Source: a virus. Taken from it: DNA of 34,171 nucleotides. The DNA lies in IMG/VR virus record IMGVR_UViG_3300047471_000620, positions 1 to 34,171 of that record. One strand, 5' to 3'. This document shows positions 2-34,171 of the stretch, in pieces (the stretch's first letter is position 1; each line of letters begins with the position of its first letter). Below the pieces are notes generated by a model. The model saw only the letters and a list, made by a program, of their open reading frames with translations. It made no database searches and had not been told where the DNA came from. The translations under genes were made by a program, and so were the position numbers.

Positions 2-166
2 TCATGTCCGCTCCCTGTCCGGCAACGCCTTGCGCCCGCAGCGAGGCTGCCCCTTGCTCGGCCCAACGGCGTCGTCGTGGTAGGGCAGCTCCGTCGGGTC
101 GACCTCCGGCAGGCCGTCCGCCGTCGCGCACACGCAGAGGCCGGTGTCTTTCTCGGGCTCACACAT
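2..166 (-). CDS. Small hypothetical protein, end of the visible leftward operon
   Basis: A 54-residue frame begins with ATG at 166, overlaps the last 8 bases of the HTH gene upstream, and ends with TGA at 4-2. The product begins MCEPEKDTGLCVC and has four cysteines (residues 2, 11, 13 and 43 approximately), an acidic middle and a basic C-terminus. I recognise no family. Its stop contains the ATGA of another gene that would start at base 5 and run off the left edge, so the operon continues. Support rests on the overlap pattern shared by every gene of this operon rather than on similarity. Confidence 0.55.
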   Translation of the reverse strand: MCEPEKDTGLCVCATADGLPEVDPTELPYHDDAVGPSKGQPRCGRKALPDRERT

Positions 167-431
167 CGTCAGCACCGCACGGCACGAGGTCGTAGAGGTT
201 CGCGTCCAACGCGTCGGCCAGGTCGAGCAGCAGCGGAACGGTCAGCGTGAAGCCGTCGGCCACCTTGTCGATCATGTGCTTGGACCGACCGACTCGGCGA
301 GCCAGCTCCGGCCTGGACACGCCGCGCTCTGCCATGAGGCGCTGGAGGTTGCGGCCGACTTGCTCGTAGACGATGTGGTCCCGTCGCTGGCGATCGGTCG
401 TCATGTTGCCCTGGTGCCCGGCGATGCTCAT
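159..431 (-). CDS. XRE-family helix-turn-helix DNA-binding protein
   Basis: This 90-residue protein carries a single helix-turn-helix of the Cro/C1 (XRE) type. The region around residues 25-75 reads VGRNLQRLMAERGVSRPELA, then RRVGRSKHMIDKVADG, then LLLDLADALDANLYDLV, the usual five-helix pattern. The start at 431 is chosen because its ATG overlaps the TGA of the exonuclease gene (ATGA at 431-428); a longer frame upstream would lie inside that gene. It sits late in the leftward operon behind the recombination genes, where a secondary regulator or a toxin/antitoxin-like DNA binder is possible. The target is unknown. The fold assignment is firm, the role is not. Confidence 0.8.
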   Translation of the reverse strand: MSIAGHQGNMTTDRQRRDHIVYEQVGRNLQRLMAERGVSRPELARRVGRSKHMIDKVADGFTLTVPLLLDLADALDANLYDLVPCGADDV

Positions 432-1168
432 CCGAAATACCCCGCTTGTTCGAGTTCGCGCTCGCCATCCTCGGCGCGCGAGGCGCCGTAGGCCTTGCAT
501 CCCGGCTTCGCCTCGCAGAAGTGGCAATGGTCGCCCGGGTTCGGCTCGGCCATCGGCAGCTTGCGGAGCAGCCGCGCGATCCGTCCCGCCTCATGGTCCA
601 GGCGGTCCGCGTCCAGCGTCTCCAGCTCCGGAGGGTCACACTTCGTCTTGCGGCCGTAGAGGTAGCCCACGCGCACCGTGTCGACCTTGAACGCGCGCGA
701 CACGGCCACGGCCTGGGCGTAAAGCTGCTCGCGGTCCTTGACGAGCTTGCCTGACTTCGCGTCGATGACGAGCGCGGCGTCGGGCTCGATGACCACCAGG
801 TCCAGCGTCCCGGCGATGGCGCCATCCTCGTGCTGGCCGTAACCTGGCGTTCCGCGTCCCCCGCGCGTGTACGCCTCGTCATGGCGTGAGTCGTAGACGA
901 TGCCAATCTCGGCATGCGCCCACGGGATCGAGTCGAGGTAGGTGATAAGCGGCGCGCTGAACCGCGAGCGCGCCTCCTCCGCCTCCTCAGACTCGCCGAT
1001 GCCGAACTGGGCGCCCTTGACGTGGCCCTCCACCAGCTTGTGAAAAAACGTGCCGATGCGAGCCTCCTTTCCTGGGGGGCGCGGAAAGGTCTCCACGTCG
1101 GCACGAAACCCGTAGGCGCACTTGTGAGCCAGCGCCATCTTGCTCATCGTCAGCCGATGCGCGCTCAC
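428..1168 (-). CDS. PD-(D/E)XK exonuclease with Fe-S cluster cysteines (Cas4/RecB-like)
   Basis: The 246-residue product is a RecB/Cas4-type nuclease. Motif I is GTFFHKLVEG (His43), motif II is GTLDLVV (Asp123) and motif III is VIDAKSGK (Asp136, Lys138), followed by a QLYAQ segment. One N-terminal cysteine (Cys17) and three C-terminal ones in CHFCEAKPGC (215, 218, 224) match the arrangement that holds a 4Fe-4S cluster in Cas4 and AddB. The start is a GTG at 1168 that overlaps the stop of the annealing-protein gene (GTGA). The likely role is a 5'-3' or end-resecting exonuclease working with the upstream annealing protein, as in Red-type phage recombination. Nuclease family is well supported; polarity and pathway are inferred. 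Confidence 0.85.
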   Translation of the reverse strand: MSAHRLTMSKMALAHKCAYGFRADVETFPRPPGKEARIGTFFHKLVEGHVKGAQFGIGESEEAEEARSRFSAPLITYLDSIPWAHAEIGIVYDSRHDEAYTRGGRGTPGYGQHEDGAIAGTLDLVVIEPDAALVIDAKSGKLVKDREQLYAQAVAVSRAFKVDTVRVGYLYGRKTKCDPPELETLDADRLDHEAGRIARLLRKLPMAEPNPGDHCHFCEAKPGCKAYGASRAEDGERELEQAGYFG

Positions 1169-1905
1169 TTCGACCCCCGCAGCGCAGCCTTGCGCTCATC
1201 CTTCGCCAGTCGCAGCGCCTCGATGTACTCGGCCGGCGGCTGGAGGCGCTTTACGTCGTCATTCGCGTCCGCCCATGCCGCCGTAAGGCTCCCCATGTCC
1301 GGGGCGCCCTGGATGGCAGCCAGATGCTCTGCGGCCCACTTGCCCCAGTCGACGCTCGCCGCGAGCTGCTTCGTCAGGTCCGGCTGCGAGGGCGGCTCCA
1401 CGATCTCCCCGTCGGCCGTCACCGTCACCGGCTTCGCCGCGCGGACGTCGGCAACCTCGGTCTCGTCGAGCCAGCCGAGGCCGCAAATGGAGAGCGTCAC
1501 CCGGCGCTTGGCCTTCGTCTCGGCCTTCATCAGGGCATTGGAGAGAGCCTCGCCCTTCAGGCCAGCGATGCTGACCGCGCCGATGCTCTCGTCGGTGCGC
1601 CCGTTCGGCATCGTGGCCCGAGCCGTCACGATGTAGAGGTCGTCGGTCCGCTCGCGCTTCGCAACGATGACCGAGACCTCGTAGAGCTTCCGGAGCTGGT
1701 CCGCAGCGTCGCGCTTCGCGTAGAGCGTCAGCTTGCCGTTCAGCCTCACATACATGAAGGGCTGCGTCAGGGGGTTTAACCCCATGCTTTCGCATACTTT
1801 CGTGTAGTACCGCGCGCGCTCGCCCGGCTGCATGCTCTCGAGGTCGCCCATCGCGATGACCCGTTCCGCGATCTGCCCGTCCACCCTGGCCATGCCGTTG
1901 TTCAT
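1165..1905 (-). CDS. Putative single-strand annealing recombination protein (RecT/Bet-like)
   Basis: The 246-residue protein begins MNNGMARVDGQ. Residues ~35-75 (ARYYTKVCESMGLNPLTQPF followed by LNGKLTLYAKRDAADQLRK) resemble the N-terminal core of Bet/RecT annealing proteins, where a GLNP turn precedes a substrate-like strand. The segment ALMKAETKAKRRVTLSICGL near residues 145-165 resembles the KA-rich helix typical of annealing proteins. Its partner downstream is an exonuclease, the usual annealing protein/exonuclease pairing. I place the start at 1905, not at an in-frame ATG at 1926, because GGAGGGCGGAGCA lies just before it and its ATGA overlaps the previous stop. The family assignment is by motif and context and should be confirmed by profile search. 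Confidence 0.6.
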   Translation of the reverse strand: MNNGMARVDGQIAERVIAMGDLESMQPGERARYYTKVCESMGLNPLTQPFMYVRLNGKLTLYAKRDAADQLRKLYEVSVIVAKRERTDDLYIVTARATMPNGRTDESIGAVSIAGLKGEALSNALMKAETKAKRRVTLSICGLGWLDETEVADVRAAKPVTVTADGEIVEPPSQPDLTKQLAASVDWGKWAAEHLAAIQGAPDMGSLTAAWADANDDVKRLQPPAEYIEALRLAKDERKAALRGSK

Positions 1906-2084
1906 TGCTCCGCCCTCCGTTGCCAAACGCCCAGCCAGTACTGCAGCCGCCCGATCTCCTCGTTCGCCGCCGACAGCCGCTCCTGCAGCTCAGCGATGCG
2001 CCTTTCGTGCTCGGCTCGCTCCTCGTCGCGGCACCGACGGATCCACTCAGCGGCCGACACGCCTGTTGCCACCTCGAGGATCAC
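1902..2084 (-). CDS. Small coiled-coil protein, unknown
   Basis: This 60-residue protein starts with a GTG that overlaps the preceding stop (GTGA at 2084-2081). Residues 15-55 are highly charged with heptad-like spacing (RRCRDEERAEHERR, ELQERLSAANEEIGRLQYWL), so a single coiled coil is likely. It resembles the many small helical proteins of phage early operons, but I recognise no family. It lies directly before the annealing-protein gene and overlaps it by four bases, so the two are probably translated together. Confidence 0.6.
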   Translation of the reverse strand: MILEVATGVSAAEWIRRCRDEERAEHERRIAELQERLSAANEEIGRLQYWLGVWQRRAEQ

Positions 2085-2371: not shown

Positions 2372-2661
2372 CGCCATCCCTCCGCGCGCCGTTCGTCGCG
2401 CTCCTCGCGGTCACACTCGTCGCTGTCGTCCTCGAGCGCCTCGTCGGCGAGCGCCTGCTCGACGCGGTCGCGATCCGCCTTGGACAGCCCCAGGTCGCCC
2501 ATGCTCTGCCACTCGCCGAACGCGAAGACCTCCACGCCGCCGTCGAAGAACGCCTGCCAGCCGCGGCCGGTCATTTCCAGCGAAACGTCGGCGCGGACCT
2601 GGAACTCGTCGCCATCGTGATGCGGCAGCTCCAGCGAAACTGTCGCCTCGTATCGGCTCAT
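2368..2661 (-). CDS. Small acidic early protein, unknown
   Basis: The 97-residue protein begins MSRYEATVSLELPHHDGDEF. Its first ~55 residues alternate as beta strands (VSLELP, FQVRADVSLEM, WQAFFDGGVEVFAF), and its last 35 are a very acidic and then basic helix (ALEDDSDECDREERDERRAE). The start at 2661 overlaps the TGA of the first gene of the operon (ATGA). No family recognised. Confidence 0.55.
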   Translation of the reverse strand: MSRYEATVSLELPHHDGDEFQVRADVSLEMTGRGWQAFFDGGVEVFAFGEWQSMGDLGLSKADRDRVEQALADEALEDDSDECDREERDERRAEGWR

Positions 2662-2837
2662 CGCCCACCACGCGCGCGGTAGGAGCCGAGGATCCGCGTC
2701 AGCTCGCGCTCAGCGTCGAGCAGCGTCGCCCAGGCGGCAGCGACGTCGACCAGCGGCTCGGCCGGCAGGAAGAGCGTGGGGCGCGGCGGGAGGATGGTTC
2801 GGGGCGGTCGCGTCGAGTCTGTATCGGCGTCGTTCAT
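2658..2837 (-). CDS. First gene of the leftward early operon, unknown 59-residue protein
   Basis: The frame runs from ATG at 2837 to TGA at 2660-2658 and encodes a protein starting MNDADTDSTRPPRTILPPRP and ending ILGSYRARGGR. The N-terminal third is proline-rich and the rest is one predicted helix (AAAWATLLDAERELTRIL). No Shine-Dalgarno sequence precedes the ATG. The -10 element of the operator-covered promoter ends only nine bases upstream, so the message is probably leaderless or nearly so. The stop overlaps the next start as ATGA. Function is unknown. It is the first gene expressed from the repressor-controlled leftward promoter. Confidence 0.6.
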   Translation of the reverse strand: MNDADTDSTRPPRTILPPRPTLFLPAEPLVDVAAAWATLLDAERELTRILGSYRARGGR

Positions 2838-2846
2838 CGTGCTGGG

Positions 2847-2875
2847 ACTATGCTGTCATTCGCCAGCGCTGTCAA
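2847..2875 (-). promoter_or_regulatory. Leftward early promoter (PL-like)
   Basis: On the minus strand a perfect -35 hexamer TTGACA (2875-2870) is followed after 17 bases by CATAGT (2852-2847), four of six matches to the sigma-70 -10 consensus. Both hexamers lie in or against the two operator sites, so bound repressor would block RNA polymerase. Start of transcription is expected near 2840, within a few bases of the ATG at 2837. Confidence 0.65.
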
Positions 2876-2883
2876 GTGACAGC
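2852..2883. promoter_or_regulatory. Left operator pair (OL-like): two abutting 16-bp sites
   Basis: Two sites with no gap share the form GCTGTC-N4-GACAGC. The inner one (2868-2883) is the perfect dyad GCTGTCAAGTGACAGC, and the outer one (2852-2867) is GCTGTCATTCGCCAGC with one mismatch in the right arm. The same dyad occurs three times at 3728-3776. They cover the leftward promoter. Repressor and Cro-like protein are the obvious ligands; which binds which site is not visible. Confidence 0.75.
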
Positions 2884-2893
2884 ATCGTCGACG

Positions 2894-2926
2894 CAAAAGA
2901 AAGCCGAAAGCCCAAGGGGCTGCGGC
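2894..2926 (-). terminator. Rho-independent terminator of the repressor/lipoprotein transcript
   Basis: Read on the minus strand, GCCG-C-AGCCC, a CTT loop, and GGGCT-TT-CGGC form a stem with one small internal bulge, followed by TTTCTTTT. It lies between the stop of the lipoprotein gene (2938) and the left operators, so it would end the lysogenic transcript before it reads into the leftward early promoter. Confidence 0.6.
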
Positions 2927-2937
2927 CACTTACCGCG

Positions 2938-3162
2938 CTACTTCTGGGCGGCGTTGCAGGCCGCTAGGTCGGCGCAGGCCTGCGCGAGGTCTGGGATGTT
3001 TCGCTCGCAGGCGCCTTGGGCCGGGATATTTCGTTGCACGGCAGCATTCCGGATCTCGGTCGCGAGCTTGTCGCAGTCCGCCTGCGTCTGCCCCGAGCCG
3101 CCGGAGCAGCTACTTGTCGCCAATGGCACGCAGATCGCGATCACTCTCCGGAACATCGACAC
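2938..3162 (-). CDS. Small secreted protein, probable lipoprotein
   Basis: The 74-residue product begins with Met, then a short basic stretch (FRR), the hydrophobic run VIAICVPLATSS and a cysteine at about residue 19, which resembles a lipoprotein signal with a weak lipobox (threonine at -3). The mature part has further cysteines (DCDKL, GACERN, QACADLAACN), suggesting disulfides. A GTG at 3162 or the ATG at 3156 may be the start; AGGGGG lies upstream of both. It overlaps the end of the repressor gene by about 50 bases and shares its transcript, so it should be expressed in the lysogen. Lysogenic conversion or superinfection exclusion is a reasonable guess only. Confidence 0.6.
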   Translation of the reverse strand: MSMFRRVIAICVPLATSSCSGGSGQTQADCDKLATEIRNAAVQRNIPAQGACERNIPDLAQACADLAACNAAQK

Positions 3163-3706
3163 TGGGCCCCCTCTTCCTCGCGCGGTCCAAGCGGCCTTTC
3201 TGCCGCCTCACCTTCCCCTGCGCTTCGATCGCAGCGACCGTCTTCTCCGGCCGCGGCACGCCAGCGCGCTCAAGTCGCTCGGCCTCCATTCGGATGGCCT
3301 CGAACCACTCCTCCTGCGTCATCCCATTCTCGCGGTCCTTGTTGCGGTCCCACGCGATATCACATGCATCACCGCGAATCCCCCAGTCTCGCGCCGTGAA
3401 CATTGCCTCCTCCGCAGGCGTCTCGCCGCGACCACCTCGCCGCATCGAGCCCGAGCCGATGAGCAACCACTCGAAGGAGACGTGCAGGAACTCAGCGATG
3501 AGCTTGATCGCCTTCGGATCCGGTCGAGCTGTCCCGCGTCGGCCGTTGACATAGCTGCTGACGAACCCGCGCGTCTTCCACACGTCTGGATGCTTGAGCC
3601 TGAGGGCGTTCTCCACCGCCGTCGTGCCACGGTGGCGCTCCTTGTGAATCGCGAAAAGCATTCTTTCCCCCAAAGTCGACTCTTCTCCAGGGGTTGACGC
3701 ACTCAT
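3110..3706 (-). CDS. Putative phage repressor (HTH, CI-like position)
   Basis: The 198-residue protein starts MSASTPGEESTLGERM. Residues ~12-80 (LGERMLFAIHKERHR, then FVSSYVNGRRG, then IKLIAEFLHVSFEWLLIGSG) form the DNA-binding domain typical of phage repressors. The remainder is helical and basic (MTQEEWFEAIRMEAERLERA; GKVRRQKGRLDRARKRG). I see no S24/LexA-type Ala-Gly cleavage site or Ser/Lys dyad, so RecA-stimulated self-cleavage is not indicated. The open frame continues upstream into the divergent gene. The ATG at 3706 fits the domain edge and lies 8 bases after a -10-like TACCGT, as in leaderless cI messages. Three operators lie directly upstream. Confidence 0.75.
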   Translation of the reverse strand: MSASTPGEESTLGERMLFAIHKERHRGTTAVENALRLKHPDVWKTRGFVSSYVNGRRGTARPDPKAIKLIAEFLHVSFEWLLIGSGSMRRGGRGETPAEEAMFTARDWGIRGDACDIAWDRNKDRENGMTQEEWFEAIRMEAERLERAGVPRPEKTVAAIEAQGKVRRQKGRLDRARKRGPSVDVPESDRDLRAIGDK

Positions 3707-3714
3707 ACTGACAG

Positions 3715-3742
3715 ACGGTAGCGGACTGCTGCCGTTCGACAA
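3715..3742 (-). promoter_or_regulatory. Repressor maintenance promoter candidate (PRM-like)
   Basis: On the minus strand TTGTCG (3742-3737), a 16-base spacer and TACCGT (3720-3715) give a weak sigma-70-type promoter ending eight bases before the repressor ATG. The -35 lies inside the operator site at 3728-3743, so occupancy of that site should switch repressor synthesis off, as OR3 does in lambda. Match to consensus is modest. Confidence 0.4.
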
Positions 3743-3776
3743 GACGTGTCGCTTGACAGCGCTGTCGTTCGACAGC
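3728..3776. promoter_or_regulatory. Right operator triplet (OR-like): three 16-bp sites
   Basis: Three sites of the form GCTGTC-N4-GACAGC lie head to tail in the divergent region: 3728-3743 (GCTGCCGTTCGACAAG, two mismatches), 3745-3760 (CGTGTCGCTTGACAGC, two mismatches) and 3761-3776 (GCTGTCGTTCGACAGC, perfect). A further half site GCTGTC is at 3779-3784. They cover the rightward promoter and the -35 of the repressor promoter. The arrangement of three sites here and two at the leftward promoter mirrors lambda OR/OL. Confidence 0.75.
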
Positions 3777-3781
3777 AAGCT
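3753..3781 (+). promoter_or_regulatory. Rightward early promoter (PR-like)
   Basis: A perfect -35 TTGACA (3753-3758) is followed after 17 bases by CAAGCT (3776-3781), a poor -10. The stretch aligns closely with the leftward promoter: both read TTGACAGCGCTG, then a variable section, then GACAGCA. The Cro-like ATG lies seven bases past the -10, again implying a leaderless message. Confidence 0.5.
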
Positions 3782-3788
3782 GTCGCCC

Positions 3789-4124
3789 ATGGGTGAATTT
3801 TCTCGACGGCGCACCGCGCTGGGGACGCAGCGATCTGCGGCGGTTCCGCTCATTTGGGCCGCACTCGCCGAGCGCGGCTGGAGCGACGCGAGGTTGGGCG
3901 CCGAAATGCGCGAGGACAGCGCGGCGGTCTCCAGGCTGCTCTACGGCGACCGCAAGGCCAACCGCCAACAGGCAACCAAGCTGCTGGACATCCTTGGTAT
4001 CCCACTCGCGTCCTGGGACGCGTCGTGTCCGGTGAAGCGGCGCAAGCATGAACCGCGTCCGCCGGCATCGACGACAAAATTAGCGATCGAGGACACGTCG
4101 CTGCACGCACGAGAGGCATCGTGA
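3789..4124 (+). CDS. Cro-like helix-turn-helix regulator
   Basis: The 111-residue protein (MGEFSRRRTALGTQ...) has an XRE-type HTH at about residues 22-75: VPLIWAALAERGWSDARLGA, SRLLYGDRKANRQQ, then KLLDILGIPLASWD. The C-terminal ~35 residues are polar and basic. I start it at ATG 3789 because the open frame upstream runs through the operators and the -35 element. No Shine-Dalgarno sequence is visible, in keeping with a leaderless transcript. As the first gene of the divergent rightward operon opposite the repressor, it is the natural Cro counterpart. Its stop overlaps the next ATG (TGATG). Confidence 0.75.
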   Translation: MGEFSRRRTALGTQRSAAVPLIWAALAERGWSDARLGAEMREDSAAVSRLLYGDRKANRQQATKLLDILGIPLASWDASCPVKRRKHEPRPPASTTKLAIEDTSLHAREAS

Positions 4125-4252
4125 TGTGGCTCAACGTGAATGCTCGAGCTAACGCTGTCGAGACTGTACGGCCGCGAATTTGCGCGTGTTCAGCGTGGCA
4201 CAGATCGCTGAGCGCCCGTGCCGTGGTCTGTGCCATCGGGGCCGTTCAGTGA
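4124..4252 (+). CDS. Possible 42-residue early peptide
   Basis: The frame begins with ATG at 4124, one base inside the Cro-like stop, and ends in a TGA overlapped by the next GTG (GTGA at 4249-4252). The peptide (MWLNVNARANAVETV... ending VVCAIGAVQ) matches nothing I know. The linked overlaps on both sides are the only evidence; a non-coding leader is the alternative, in which case the next gene might start at a TTG at 4180. Confidence 0.35.
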   Translation: MWLNVNARANAVETVRPRICACSAWHRSLSARAVVCAIGAVQ

Positions 4253-4503
4253 AGCCCTGGGAAGAGAGCTGGGGCTACGCCACGCACACGCAAACCGGCA
4301 ATTGCGCTGAGCTGCACCTCGGCGACGGCCAGCAGATCTGCGTGCAAATCGGCATCGACGACGAAGCCGACGCGTACGCCCAGCTCGCCGCTTGCGCCCC
4401 CGAGATGGCGCGGCTGCTGCTGGACCTGGACGACTCGGACATGTTCCCCGACGTCCGGCGCCAGATCGTCGCCGTCCTCCGCAAGGCCGGGGTGAGGCCG
4501 TGA
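4249..4503 (+). CDS. Small phage early protein, unknown
   Basis: The 84-residue protein starts with GTG (MKPWEESWGYATHTQTGN). It contains LAACAPEMARLLLDLDD and ends QIVAVLRKAGVRP. The pattern APEMARLLL...ALRKAGV is common in small uncharacterised early proteins of tailed phages that otherwise carry a Cys/His pair in between; that pair is absent here. The first half (ELHLGDGQQICVQIGIDDEADAYA) looks like beta strands. The start overlaps the previous stop and the stop overlaps the next GTG. Confidence 0.6.
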   Translation: MKPWEESWGYATHTQTGNCAELHLGDGQQICVQIGIDDEADAYAQLAACAPEMARLLLDLDDSDMFPDVRRQIVAVLRKAGVRP

Positions 4504-4589
4504 CCATTCTCGCCGCATGCGCGGGTACCTTCGCGATCGGCTGGGTCGTCGGCCGACTCCTTCGCCCGTGGATCGGGGTGGATCGGTGA
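4500..4589 (+). CDS. 29-residue single-span membrane peptide
   Basis: GTG at 4500 opens a short frame whose product begins MTILAACAGTFAIGWVVGRL and ends LRPWIGVDR. Residues 2-20 form one hydrophobic span followed by arginines, giving an N-out/C-in topology. It is overlapped by four bases at each end with its neighbours (GTGA twice), which supports it in spite of its length. Role unknown. Confidence 0.5.
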   Translation: MTILAACAGTFAIGWVVGRLLRPWIGVDR

Positions 4590-4963
4590 CCACGCCCCGC
4601 TACCTGACCGTCAAGGACGTCATGGCGATCCTCCAGTGCGGTCTGACGAAGGCCTACCAGACGATCGACCTCATCGGCCGCGCGAACGTCCCCGGGATGG
4701 CGCGCGTGCTCGAGAGCAAATTCTACGAGTACCTGGAAGGGCGGAATCTGCCATGCGGCTCTACGCGCGAACGAAGCGAAACGGCAGTCGTGTCTGGTGG
4801 GCGTCCTGGACCGAGGGCAAGCGGACGATCCGGCGATCGACCGGGTGTAGCTCCAAGTCCGCCGCGGAGATCGTCGTCGCGCGATGGGAGCGCGAGCGCG
4901 CCGACCCCGTTTACGCCGCGGCGCAAAGTGCGACCTTCGGCGCAGAAGCCAACCGGTTCCTGA
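4586..4963 (+). CDS. Excisionase-like HTH protein overlapping integrase
   Basis: The GTG at 4586 opens a 125-residue frame. Residues 3-55 (RYLTVKDVMAILQCGLTKAY, then VPGMARVLESKFYEYLEGR) look like a MerR/HTH_17-type winged helix as found in excisionases: TVKDVMAILQ is helix-turn-helix and the MARVLESKFYEYLE part the wing and closing helix. After about residue 60 the sequence turns into low-complexity Arg/Ser/Pro/Gly that lies out of frame over the integrase start (4753-4963), so the true C-terminus may be shorter, or both frames are used. The position directly before the integrase and attP supports an excisionase role. Confidence 0.6.
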   Translation: MTTPRYLTVKDVMAILQCGLTKAYQTIDLIGRANVPGMARVLESKFYEYLEGRNLPCGSTRERSETAVVSGGRPGPRASGRSGDRPGVAPSPPRRSSSRDGSASAPTPFTPRRKVRPSAQKPTGS

Positions 4964-5862: not shown

Positions 5863-5871
5863 TGTTTCCTT

Positions 5872-5914
5872 GTGGGCCGAGCGGGGCACGATCCCGCGAC
5901 CTACGGATTAAAAG
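5872..5914 (-). other. attP core: 3' end of a tRNA-Lys(TTT) gene
   Basis: Read on the minus strand the segment is CTTTTAATCC (anticodon loop, TTT), then GTAGGTC, then GCGGG-ATCGTGC-CCCGC as the T arm, then a CTCGGCCCAC acceptor end. It matches the 3' half of bacterial tRNA-Lys, strongest over GGTCGCGGGATC back to CTTTTAATCC (5893-5914). The T loop lacks the canonical TTCGA, so the phage copy is not itself a working tRNA end; the exact crossover core is probably the ~22 bp including the anticodon loop. It begins ten bases after the integrase stop. Confidence 0.75.
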
Positions 5915-5969
5915 GCCGGACGGTCAAAGTGCACTTCGAGCCTGTTTTTACGGGCTGACGTCGTGGGTC

Positions 5970-7273: not shown

Positions 7274-7938
7274 TCATCAAGCTGGAAGATTTGGCGCCCG
7301 AGGTGGCGAAGCGCGTAGTGGTCGACGCAGAACGGATCGCGGCGGAAGACGAAGCCAGGCAGGCCGAGGCGGATCGCCGGGACGCCGCCGCGCTTCGGAC
7401 GGCCATCGAGCATACCCTCGCCAGGGTGCCCCCCGCGTATGCGGGCGCCGAGCTCGACGCCCGATGGCTTCGGGAGCTGGTCGGCGAGGATGCGATCGCC
7501 AAGGCGCGGGATTCGCTCGGCGAGGCTCGGGTTACCTGCCTCGGCGTGCCGGGCGCCGGCAAGACGTCGATGCTGGCCGCCATGTTCCGCATGAAGGCTC
7601 GGGGCTTCACGTCAACGCGTGCCCTCCGCGGCTTCCGGTGGACGTCGTCGCACAAGCTGGCCAAGGCGCGGGCGGGGCAGCCGCTCGGCGAGGGCGAGGC
7701 GCCGCTGGTCGAGTCGTGCCTGGAGGCGTCGCTGCTCGTGCTCGATGAGCTGGGTGCCGAGGACCCGCGGTATGCCTCGGCGGTCGGCGAGGTGCTCTAC
7801 GAGCGCCACGAGCAGGCGCTACCGACCTGGGTGACCACGGGCGTAGGGCCGAAGGAGATCTCCGCCCGCTACGGCGGCGGCATCTCGCGGCGCGTGTTCG
7901 AAAACGCCGCGGTGTTCCGGCTCGCGGGGCGCCGATGA
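7270..7938 (+). CDS. DnaC/IstB-like AAA+ helicase loader
   Basis: The 222-residue protein is a P-loop ATPase with Walker A GVPGAGKT at residues 92-99, Walker B LVLDELG at ~156-162, and a later WVTTGVGPKEISARYGGGIS followed by SRRVFENAAVFRLAGRR, matching the sensor/arginine-finger region of DnaC-type loaders (R-G-x-x-SR pattern). The first ~90 residues form a charged helical N-terminus that would contact the helicase or initiator. ATG at 7270 overlaps the initiator stop (ATGA). It should load the host replicative helicase, since no phage helicase or polymerase is visible in the window. Confidence 0.85.
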   Translation: MIIKLEDLAPEVAKRVVVDAERIAAEDEARQAEADRRDAAALRTAIEHTLARVPPAYAGAELDARWLRELVGEDAIAKARDSLGEARVTCLGVPGAGKTSMLAAMFRMKARGFTSTRALRGFRWTSSHKLAKARAGQPLGEGEAPLVESCLEASLLVLDELGAEDPRYASAVGEVLYERHEQALPTWVTTGVGPKEISARYGGGISRRVFENAAVFRLAGRR

Positions 7939-8134
7939 TCCGCGTCACGATCCCCATCCGAACCGTCTCCGAGTCGAACCAGCGCGACCGAGCATCAAGA
8001 TCCCCGAGGGCTACCGCCTGGAGCGGCAGCCCACCTGTCAGCCCCAGGCTGAGACCCCGACCGCGGTCCGCGACCGAGATGGCCGCGTGCTCGCGCAGAT
8101 TGACGTCTGGAGGGCCTCCGAGCTGCCGAACTGA
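7935..8134 (+). pseudogene. Frameshifted small gene after the loader
   Basis: The ATG at 7935 overlaps the loader stop as ATGA and opens MIRVTIPIRTVSESNQRDRA, a conserved-looking start, but the frame then runs into Arg/Ser/Pro-rich sequence typical of a wrong frame. From about 7994 another frame gives IKIPEGYRLERQ, then AVRDRDGRVLAQIDVWRASE and LPN with a stop at 8132-8134, which reads as ordinary protein and lacks its own start codon. The simplest reading is one gene broken by a deletion or frameshift near 7985-7995. If unbroken, the product would be about 65 residues; relatives may be longer. Confidence 0.5.
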
Positions 8135-8250
8135 CCCGAGGGGGCCCGCTAAGCGAAACGCGGTCCTGGGGGCTGCTACGTGGCAGCAATCGGGCAATTC
8201 GTAGATCTGCCTAATTTCCGGACTTTACGGACATCCTGGGATCTGCCAAC
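8135..8250. other. 116-base gap before the terminase genes, with a repeated octamer
   Basis: No gene is apparent. GATCTGCC occurs twice (8204-8211 and 8240-8247) and TCCG-GACTTTA-CGGA (around 8217-8231) is a short inverted repeat. This is the only clear gap in the rightward cluster between the replication and packaging genes, so a late promoter or a packaging-initiation (pac/cos) site could be here, but nothing in the sequence proves either. Confidence 0.3.
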
Positions 8251-8673
8251 TTGGTTGGCGTGGGAGCGGGCCGACCCTGTCTGCTGGATGATCTGATGGC
8301 CCATCGGATCGTCGATGAGATCAAGAAGGGCGCCACCCGAGTTGGCGCGGCCAAGTCGGCCGGCATCGGGCGCTCCACGCTGTACGAGTGGCTGGAGCTT
8401 GGCCGGGCCGGCGAAGAGCCGTTCGCTGACTTCACCCGTCGCGTCCGCGAGGCAGACGGCAAGGCGCAGACGGCCGTAGAGGCCGCGCTGTACAAGTCCG
8501 CGACCGAGGGCAGCGTTCCGGCGCAGAGCTTCTGGCTCAAGGCGCGGGCCCCGCGCGAGTGGGCGGGAGACGGATCGACAGCGCCCACGCTGGCCGAGGC
8601 TGACGTGATCGCGGCGAACGATGAGGCGACGCTGGAGGCTGCGCTCAGCGCAGCGAGGAGCCGTGCATCATGA
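8251..8673 (+). CDS. Small terminase subunit (putative)
   Basis: The 140-residue protein opens with AGRPCLLDDLMAHRIVDEIK, then VGAAKSAGIGRSTLYEWLEL and FTRRVREADGKAQTAVEAAL. A GRP motif, a phage-type HTH (residues ~20-50) and a following long helix are the pattern of many small terminase subunits, and the C-terminal PREWAGDG also fits. Start is uncertain: TTG 8251 or GTG 8260 keep the GRP motif, while ATG 8293 would lose it. It would recognise phage DNA and recruit the large subunit encoded at 11438, from which it is separated by seven genes. Confidence 0.65.
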   Translation: MVGVGAGRPCLLDDLMAHRIVDEIKKGATRVGAAKSAGIGRSTLYEWLELGRAGEEPFADFTRRVREADGKAQTAVEAALYKSATEGSVPAQSFWLKARAPREWAGDGSTAPTLAEADVIAANDEATLEAALSAARSRAS

Positions 8674-8885
8674 GGACACCTGGCAGCTACCTCGCGCGCA
8701 TGGCCACGGCGCGGATGGTCTATGCGGCGCAGCCGAAGCGCCAGCGCTGGGAGAACGACCTCGCGGCCGAGCGCTTCGTCGAGTGCGATGCGACGTGGAC
8801 CGGCATCCGCGAGCGCTGGGAGGCAGCGACGGCGAACCACGAGCGCGATGACAAGGTGTGGGACGCCATCGAGGCGGCAGCGTGA
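8670..8885 (+). CDS. Small helical protein in terminase cluster, unknown
   Basis: The 71-residue product begins MRTPGSYLARMATARMVYAA and continues with charged helix (QRWENDLAAERFVECDATW, ERWEAATANHERDDKVWDAI). It overlaps the small terminase stop by ATGA and its own stop is overlapped by the glycosyltransferase GTG. No family recognised. Confidence 0.6.
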   Translation: MRTPGSYLARMATARMVYAAQPKRQRWENDLAAERFVECDATWTGIRERWEAATANHERDDKVWDAIEAAA

Positions 8886-9799
8886 GGCCGCTCGTCTGCC
8901 TCACGATGATCGTGAAAAACGAGGCGCACATCCTCGCGCGCTGCCTCGCGAAGATCCGGCCGCACATCGACTTCTGGATCATCGTCGACACCGGCAGCAC
9001 CGACGACACGAAGCGCGTGGCCGCCGAGGCGCTGCGCGGCATCCCGGGAGAGATCCACGACCACGAGTGGCGCGGCTTCGGCGACGCGCGGACGCGCGCG
9101 CTCGAACTGGCCGAGCAGATCACCGTTGGCCGCCCGGCCTACGCCTGGGTGGTCGACGCGGATGACGTGTGGGACGGCGAGCTGGACCGCTCGCAGCTCA
9201 CCTCGGCCGCGCACTCGGTGTGGTTCCACGGCACAGGCGATCGCGTGAAGTGGGCCACGAACCGCTTCTTCCAGCTCGGCAAGGGCTGGCGCTACGTCGG
9301 CCCGGTGCATGAAGAGCCAGTCGCGAACGAGCCGCACGATCGCCCGCTCATCGAGTGCATGACCGTCTCGTCGCCGAACGACGGCGGGAGTTGGAGAGAT
9401 CCCGACAAGCACCTGAAGCATGTCGCGGCGTTGCGCGAGGCGCTGGACAAGGAGCCGCTGAACACTCGCTACCAGTTCTACCTGGCGCAGAGCTACCGGG
9501 ACCACGGAGACGACGCCACGGCGGCGGTGATGTACCTGCAGCGCGCGGCGATGGGCCCAGGCTCCTTCCCGGAGGAGATCTACGTGTCATTCCTGGAGGC
9601 CGGCCGCGCTCTGATGCGGCTCGGCCGCATCGACGACGCCAAGCGCGCCCTGCTGAACGCACACCAGAGCTACAAAGAGCGCCGCGAGGCGATGGCCGAG
9701 CTGGGCCGGCTCTTCCTGATCAAGGCCGCGACGTCGCCCACGGTGGGGACACTCAACGTCGAGGCCGCGCCGACGCTCAGCGAGGAGGCGGAAGCGTGA
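8882..9799 (+). CDS. GT2-family glycosyltransferase with TPR-like C-terminus
   Basis: The 305-residue protein starts at a GTG overlapping the previous stop. Residues 3-20 (PLVCLTMIVKNEAHILARCL) and DTGSTDDT at 36-43 are hallmarks of GT-A fold family 2 enzymes, followed by EWRGFGDARTRALELA and the metal-binding VVDADD at 91-95. From about residue 185 the sequence becomes helical repeats (HLKHVAALREALDKEP, TRYQFYLAQSYRDHGD, VSFLEAGRALMRLGRIDDAK), resembling tetratricopeptide repeats, a combination seen in SunS-like and other GT2 proteins. Acceptor unknown: virion protein, modified DNA base or host surface glycan are possible. It lies between the terminase genes. Confidence 0.85.
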   Translation: MRPLVCLTMIVKNEAHILARCLAKIRPHIDFWIIVDTGSTDDTKRVAAEALRGIPGEIHDHEWRGFGDARTRALELAEQITVGRPAYAWVVDADDVWDGELDRSQLTSAAHSVWFHGTGDRVKWATNRFFQLGKGWRYVGPVHEEPVANEPHDRPLIECMTVSSPNDGGSWRDPDKHLKHVAALREALDKEPLNTRYQFYLAQSYRDHGDDATAAVMYLQRAAMGPGSFPEEIYVSFLEAGRALMRLGRIDDAKRALLNAHQSYKERREAMAELGRLFLIKAATSPTVGTLNVEAAPTLSEEAEA

Positions 9800-33517: not shown

Positions 33518-34171
33518 GCGTCGTCCGCACCCATATCCCCGAGGTCGTCGTCCCCGGTAAGCGCCTTGGGCGGCACATCGAGCACGACCCGCGCTCGCGC
33601 GCATTCGAGACGCCTCACGCAGCCGCCCCGCTCATCTCGGCGAAGTGGTTTCGCCACTGCGCGCCGTTCGATCAGGGCGACCTTGGCTCCTGCACCGGCA
33701 ACGCGATGTGCGGCGCCGTCATGACCGAGCCGCTCTTCCGGGGCGAGGCGCTGACGGAGACGGATGCCGTGGCGGTCTACTCCGCAGCGACGAGGCTCGA
33801 TGCCGTGCGCGGCGTCTACCCGCCGACCGACACGGGGAGCTCGGGCCTGGCGGTCGCTCGCGTGGCGCGGTCGAAGGGCTACATCACGAGCTACGCGCAT
33901 GCATTCTCGCTCCAGGCAGCGCTCGCGGCGCTCGGTCGCGGGCCGGTCATCATCGGGATCAACTGGTATGACTCGTTCGACGATCCGGCAGGAGCGCACG
34001 CCGAGTTGGTCATCAAGCCGGGGGCGGCCATCCGCGGCGGCCACGAGGTGGAGCTGAACGAGATCGACATCGCGAGCAAGTACGTCCGCGGCGTCAACAG
34101 CTGGGGCATCGGATGGGGTGACGGTGGCTGCTTCGTCATGTCGTTCGACACGCTGGGGCGCCTGCTCTCCG
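33514..34171 (+). CDS. Papain-like (C1) cysteine peptidase, cut by the window edge
   Basis: The GTG at 33514 opens a frame that runs off the right edge (219 residues seen, starting MSVVRTHIPEVVVPGKRLGR). It carries the papain set in the right order: Gln54 and Cys60 in DQGDLGSCTGNA, His177 in RGGHEVELNEI, and Asn195 in VNSWGIGWGDGGCFVMS. The spacing of six between Gln and Cys is as in papain. No propeptide or signal is evident. Such peptidases are rare in phage lysis regions; with a holin-like gene two genes upstream it is a candidate cell-wall or virion-processing enzyme. The C-terminus is unknown. Confidence 0.85.
   Translation, partial: MSVVRTHIPEVVVPGKRLGRHIEHDPRSRAFETPHAAAPLISAKWFRHCAPFDQGDLGSCTGNAMCGAVMTEPLFRGEALTETDAVAVYSAATRLDAVRGVYPPTDTGSSGLAVARVARSKGYITSYAHAFSLQAALAALGRGPVIIGINWYDSFDDPAGAHAELVIKPGAAIRGGHEVELNEIDIASKYVRGVNSWGIGWGDGGCFVMSFDTLGRLLS

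Follow-up and report, generated by a model that had tools for sequence, protein, structure and literature searches.

A putative immunity region with lambda/N15-like organisation and its own operators in an uncultured temperate phage

Gene content of the locus

The DNA analysed here, referred to as the window, comprises an entire IMG/VR virus record (34,171 bp, GC content 68%) and encodes a P22-like portal protein, a terminase and an SU10-type capsid protein. A leftward operon ends with genes for a RecT-like protein, a PD-(D/E)XK exonuclease and a helix-turn-helix (HTH) protein, and a rightward operon contains a Cro-like gene, an integrase gene and replication genes. Genes of the locus are the following.

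428..1168, minus strand: PD-(D/E)XK exonuclease (PDDEXK_1, 6e-12; phrog_69 exonuclease, 1e-15)
1165..1926, minus strand: RecT-like single-strand annealing protein, assigned from its neighbourhood and homologues; adjoins the exonuclease gene
2658..2837, minus strand: first leftward gene, 59 amino acids, without family; head of the operon leading to RecT and the exonuclease
3110..3706, minus strand: putative lysogeny repressor with a CI-like role, 198 amino acids; Xre HTH, without S24 domain
3789..4124, plus strand: Cro-like protein, 111 amino acids (HTH_3, 0.002); first in the rightward operon, divergent from the repressor gene

The RecT-like protein gave no match in Pfam, PHROGs or NCBIfam, and 439 viral relatives of it were found; a search of genome contigs with RecT recovered no close prophage. 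The gene at the end of the leftward operon (159-434, minus strand) encodes a third HTH protein (HTH_26, 4e-7). Between the replication and terminase genes lies a gene for a family 2 glycosyltransferase with TPR repeats (8858-9799, plus strand; phrog_13126, 1e-24). Directly behind the integrase gene, the segment at about 5870-5920 resembles the 3' part of a tRNA-Lys on the reverse strand and is a candidate attP; ARAGORN identified no whole tRNA there.

The 198-amino-acid putative repressor matched HTH_3 below the Pfam curated cut-off (2.7e-4) as well as PHROG repressor families 8, 4 and 3037. Pfam and NCBIfam scans detected the HTH alone, with no S24 peptidase/oligomerisation domain of the kind that forms the CI C-terminus. 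Its predicted structure was all-helical and of low confidence (pLDDT 47) and was set aside for claims about the fold. The Cro-like protein has a homologue (E 1.6e-6) in a related phage contig, L004, described below; its predicted model gave no Foldseek match with an E value of 0.001 or better and supports a general Xre fold only. Phage GenBank records contained no convincing relative of either protein, and no antirepressor gene was identified in the window. An open reading frame (ORF) of 74 codons at 2938-3162 (minus strand), encoding a Cys-rich, lipoprotein-like product, overlaps the repressor gene at its 3' end, where lambda has rex, and is possibly a lysogenic-conversion gene.

Putative operator dyads and early promoters

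The earlier note, made from the sequence of the window, had placed five 16-bp dyads at 2852 and 2868 on the left and at 3728, 3745 and 3761 on the right, and dyads were found at all five positions. They are listed without strand, with mismatches counted over the 12 positions of GCTGTC-N4-GACAGC.

2852..2867: putative left operator 1 (OL1-like), GCTGTCATTCGCCAGC, GCTGTC-N4-GCCAGC, 1 mismatch; over the PL spacer and -10 edge
2868..2883: putative left operator 2 (OL2-like), GCTGTCAAGTGACAGC, perfect dyad, 0 mismatches; contains the PL -35
3728..3743: putative right operator 3 (OR3-like), GCTGCCGTTCGACAAG, 3 mismatches, TGNC-N4-GNCA core intact; on the repressor side
3745..3760: putative right operator 2 (OR2-like), CGTGTCGCTTGACAGC, 2 mismatches; contains the PR -35
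3761..3776: putative right operator 1 (OR1-like), GCTGTCGTTCGACAGC, perfect dyad, 0 mismatches; over the PR spacer

The sites had been described as sharing the same half-site, which holds for the TGNC-N4-GNCA core, kept in five of five dyads, but not for the full GACAGC, which is perfect in only 6 of the 10 half-sites; on the right, 3728 (3 mismatches) and 3745 (2) are degenerate. Centre to centre, the left dyads are 16 bp apart and the right dyads 17 and 16 bp. Three promoters were assigned around them.

2847..2875, minus strand: early leftward promoter PL, TTGACA (2875-2870), 17-bp spacer, CATAGT (2852-2847); ATG 9 nt beyond the -10
3753..3781, plus strand: early rightward promoter PR, TTGACA (3753-3758), 17-bp spacer, CAAGCT (3776-3781); ATG 7 nt beyond
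3715..3742, minus strand: proposed maintenance promoter PRM, TTGTCG (3742-3737), 16-bp spacer, TACCGT (3720-3715); ATG 8 nt beyond; a reading of the sequence only

PL matches 10 of 12 consensus positions and is the only consensus promoter in 2500-4600, where 0.1 would be expected. PR combines a perfect -35 with a weak -10 (CAAGCT, 2/6 by the E. coli consensus); its operator-promoter unit and register are the same in PL, in both promoters of L004 and in nine further loci. As had been claimed, the TTGACA of each early promoter lies inside an operator, this being the outer dyad on both sides (2875-2870, minus strand, and 3753-3758, plus strand), with the inner dyad covering the spacer, and PL and PR have TTGACAGCGCTG in common together with GACAGCA at the same offset. 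The proposed PRM has a weak consensus, and its -35 lies inside OR3. Start codons in the window stand 7-9 nt past the predicted -10 hexamers, and because the first ATG follows at 9 nt (PL) and 7 nt (PR), the early messages from both promoters are predicted to be leaderless. The description of the switch as complete was too strong, given a repressor that lacks the S24 autocleavage domain and a maintenance promoter proposed from its sequence.

Two copies of the exact dyad are present, where about 0.003 would be expected per window. When up to 3 mismatches are allowed, the window as a whole contains no more copies than chance predicts (32 against 31.8), and clustering is therefore the special feature of the motif: the chance of five sites in the two short regions (about 111 bp) is about 1e-7, a value obtained for a motif picked after seeing it. 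Together, the two exact copies and the five-site clustering rule out chance. When the collected loci were searched for any dyad family present as two close pairs, the window motif had the joint best score, tied with one GC-rich match in L013 (order-3 Markov controls); general dyad clustering over all loci with no architecture filter was swamped by codon-biased GC repeats. Literature searches returned no description of this operator or module. A further dyad, CATGTCGTTCGACACG, is found at 34137-34152 in the window and at 18514-18529 in L004, with the same 12-bp core as OR1 (TGTCGTTCGACA); it lies outside the immunity region in both heteroimmune phages and is probably not an operator. A cluster of TTGCCA-N4-TGGCAA in L007, an unrelated phage contig, looked switch-like at first sight and was rejected, its copies being scattered through genes (many TTGCCAC..GTGGCAA-like palindromes in 1305-1952).

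Comparison with a heteroimmune relative

The contig L004 (IMGVR 3300046836_000302, 42 kb) carries a RecT/exonuclease operon 95% identical to that of the window, and its first leftward gene, 95% identical to window 2658..2837, again stands directly behind PL. Its repressor differs from the window repressor, and the Cro-like proteins are only about 30% identical. The nearest named NCBIfam families of the L004 repressor are RstR and DicA, with matches far below the curated cut-offs. The earlier note had named a lack of conserved dyads at the same places in relatives as grounds for refutation, and in this contig its proposal passed that test: a different dyad, TTGNC-N4-GNCAA, occupies the five places corresponding to the window sites.

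8427: left dyad, TTGCCATTGGGCAA, counterpart of window 2852..2867
8410: left dyad, GTGACGATTGACAA, one mismatch, counterpart of window 2868..2883
7304: right dyad, TTGTCAACGGACAA, counterpart of window 3745..3760
7287: right dyad, TTGCCGAACGTCAA, counterpart of window 3761..3776
7347: third right dyad, 43 bp from the second right site (17 in the window)

The exact form TTGNC-N4-GNCAA has 5 matches in the 42 kb of L004, 4 of them at the immunity sites. The early promoters of L004 repeat each other in inverted orientation over 38 nt, and in both the outer dyad contains the -35, with a pair spacing of 17 bp, one base wider than in the window. Dyads of the window type, at up to 2 mismatches, were absent from the L004 immunity region. 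With its own dyad at the window's five places and none of the window type, L004 shows that the place of the operators is conserved while their letters change together with the repressor, which is the behaviour of heteroimmune phages. In the place of the 74-amino-acid ORF of the window, L004 has a lipoprotein-like ORF (about 7851-8357, minus strand) with a metzincin-type motif, HELGHSFGLAH, and weak M66, M10 and M12B matches. The contigs L003 and L085 (99.9%) represent the same virus as the window, showed no difference inside the sites and were uninformative.

Pattern scan of viral contigs

An operator with a buried -35, a 16- or 17-bp spacing and a second operator were combined into the pattern TGNCNNTTGACA-N4/5-TGNC-N4-GNCA, which was scanned over 2.9 million viral contigs (IMG/VR) for pairs of exact copies no more than 2.5 kb apart. 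Apart from the virus of the window itself, such pairs turned up in eight contigs from seven viruses, L205 and L243 having the same sequences; all pairs were divergent and none convergent, with 228-1369 bp between the units. In L162 and L215 the partner unit has one mismatch. The pattern is rare: a scan of 379 genomes from a single phylum gave 5 matches, against 2 in the control. Spacing, TGNC core and buried -35 are imposed by the pattern and are no evidence at the scanned loci, so that spacing counts as independent evidence for the window and L004 alone; divergent pairing, Cro-like genes and a third site are not imposed.

Each of the nine further loci has a gene for a Cro-like protein of 70-111 amino acids that begins 11-16 nt past the right unit, and in six of the nine a start follows the left unit by 13-16 nt. 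Over the HTH these proteins can be aligned with one another, and in most of them a tryptophan follows it. Where a repressor could be assigned between the units it was a small Xre protein without S24 domain; L156 and L223 have a short interval with no assigned repressor. At positions that the pattern leaves free, units of one phage agree with each other (7.3/13 and 7.2/14) more than units of different phages do (4.5 and 3.5). Of 11 phages, 7 have a third core site on the cro side, and none has one on the left. The same divergent units thus recur in seven more viruses, and together with L004 the scan supports the earlier proposal of phage-specific operators, two on the left and three on the right.

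In L193 the gene for the Xre repressor is followed directly by an ORF with a HEHAH motif (4094-4663, minus strand), ImmA/IrrE-like by eye, which suggests induction by a protease in that phage. In three genomes from the phylum of L129 (a Myxococcales metagenome-assembled genome), L247, L248 and L249, the same operator unit and a second dyad about 550 bp away enclose a small Xre gene, and in L247 a DNA-methylase-like ORF stands on the other side of the unit; these units are possibly prophage-derived. The strict operator pair of the window, sought in viral contigs, gave two unrelated chance matches besides the same virus. L144, found by an 84-amino-acid gene, had no comparable immunity region upstream of that gene.

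Proposed mechanism and alternative explanations

The dyads, the way they are aligned with the promoters, and a heteroimmune relative that keeps their placement but not their sequence lead us to regard this locus as very probably the immunity region of a temperate phage of the P22-portal type, built and working like a lambda/N15 switch. The 198-amino-acid repressor would bind the 16-bp dyads as a dimer, and two abutting dimers per side, whose cooperativity we infer along with the assignment of proteins to sites, would cover the spacer of each early promoter as well as its -35, which forms one arm of the outer operator. Lysogens would thereby keep both operons silent, the leftward one for recombination and the rightward one for cro, integrase and replication. 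The third right site would lie on the -35 of the weak repressor promoter, where the Cro-like protein or excess repressor would lower repressor synthesis; Cro at this site would commit the phage to lytic growth.

Induction may proceed by something other than RecA-driven self-cleavage. It is fairly probable that it is of the DicA/Gifsy type, in which a separate antirepressor or an ImmA-like protease relieves repression by a small repressor that is not itself cleavable; this is compatible with the switch proposed above and concerns lysogen induction only. S24 domains were found in none of ten aligned repressors, the L004 repressor resembles RstR/DicA, L193 has its HEHAH ORF behind the repressor gene, and the Gifsy repressors GfoR and GtgR are small, uncleaved and inactivated by antirepressors (PMC3121763); against this, the window yielded no antirepressor gene and the family matches are far below curated cut-offs.

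Alternatively, the Cro-like protein or a host Xre regulator might be the sole or principal protein to bind the dyads; the region would then be a two-sided promoter island without a bistable repressor/Cro switch, and the 198-amino-acid protein would act elsewhere. Annotation of both HTH proteins is weak, in PY54 just one of the expected sites is bound by Cro (PMC4488713), and similar units stand beside an Xre gene in genomes of the L129 phylum, beyond known phages. We nevertheless consider this arrangement unlikely, as repressor, cro and operator are replaced together in L004 while the flanking operon stays 95% identical, and a host regulator would keep its specificity when the phage module changes. 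That the dyads are mere background, GC-rich palindromes and promoter-shaped DNA without a regulator, would fit the 68% GC and the chance-level count of the relaxed motif window-wide, but is extremely improbable in view of the clustering at both early promoters, the two exact copies and the divergent pairs in seven other viruses, and is refuted for practical purposes by the other dyad at the same places in L004.

On the switch-like reading, an uncultured temperate podovirus would use lambda/N15 logic with operators of its own. Divergent pairs of the scanned pattern provide a compact DNA signature by which such switches can be found without knowing the proteins, and since the signature recurs in other phages, immunity groups become predictable. 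The window and L004 form a natural pair with the same recombination operon, in which operator, repressor and cro are swapped together, making immunity specificity directly testable by single-base or protein swaps. These loci may belong to a separate class of immunity module that recurs in phages of GC-rich bacteria and is characterised by a -35 that is half an operator, abutting dimers at 16-17 bp, leaderless early operons and groups differing by the N of TGNC and flanking bases; we put this forward tentatively, inclining slightly against it. In such a class, the spacing of 16-17 bp, roughly one and a half helical turns, would place the two dimers on roughly opposite faces, and heteroimmunity would be readable directly from sequence.

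Comparison with known systems

Controller proteins of the C.Esp1396I type are small Xre dimers that resemble the predicted Cro-like model but regulate restriction-modification genes. Short Xre repressors without a cleavage domain, as in the window and its relatives, recall the Gifsy/DicA type, from which the locus differs in that family-model matches are far below curated cut-offs and no antirepressor was found in the window. Lambda has three left operators and 17-bp sites about 23-24 bp apart, its CI is cleavable with a C-terminal oligomerisation domain, and lambda-type induction requires a cleavable repressor. As in lambda, the repressor and Cro-like genes of the window diverge, operators cluster at both early promoters, the left operon is one for recombination and a third right site lies on the repressor side; unlike lambda, the window has two left sites, which abut, and a repressor without S24 domain. 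The domain organisation of CI is described in PMC3121763, and the heteroimmune Gifsy relatives treated there have different operators.

The lambda OL/OR logic proposed at the outset thus matches in layout, but N15 is the closer model, because N15 has three right and two left 16-bp sites and lambda has three left operators. The immB region of N15 and phiKO2 (CB repressor and Cro) has, like the window, three right and two left operators that are 16-bp dyads, and N15 operators share the 6-N4-6 form of those in the window (N15 OR3, TTATAGCTGGCTATAA). Centre to centre, the N15 operators are about 23-25 bp apart, as estimated from annotated operator blocks and dyads, against 16-17 bp in the window, where the operators abut with TTGACA inside the outer dyad and are unrelated to N15 in sequence. 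OL of N15 lies at the plasmid replication gene repA, whereas the left sites of the window lie at the RecT/exonuclease operon. In PY54, leaderless cI and cro mRNAs have been measured, and peripheral bases set operator specificity between PY54 and its relatives (PMC4488713). On this analysis the system would work like a lambda/N15 switch without being, strictly speaking, a member of the CI family. The general type of switch is already well known; here the operator is its own and the geometry tighter.
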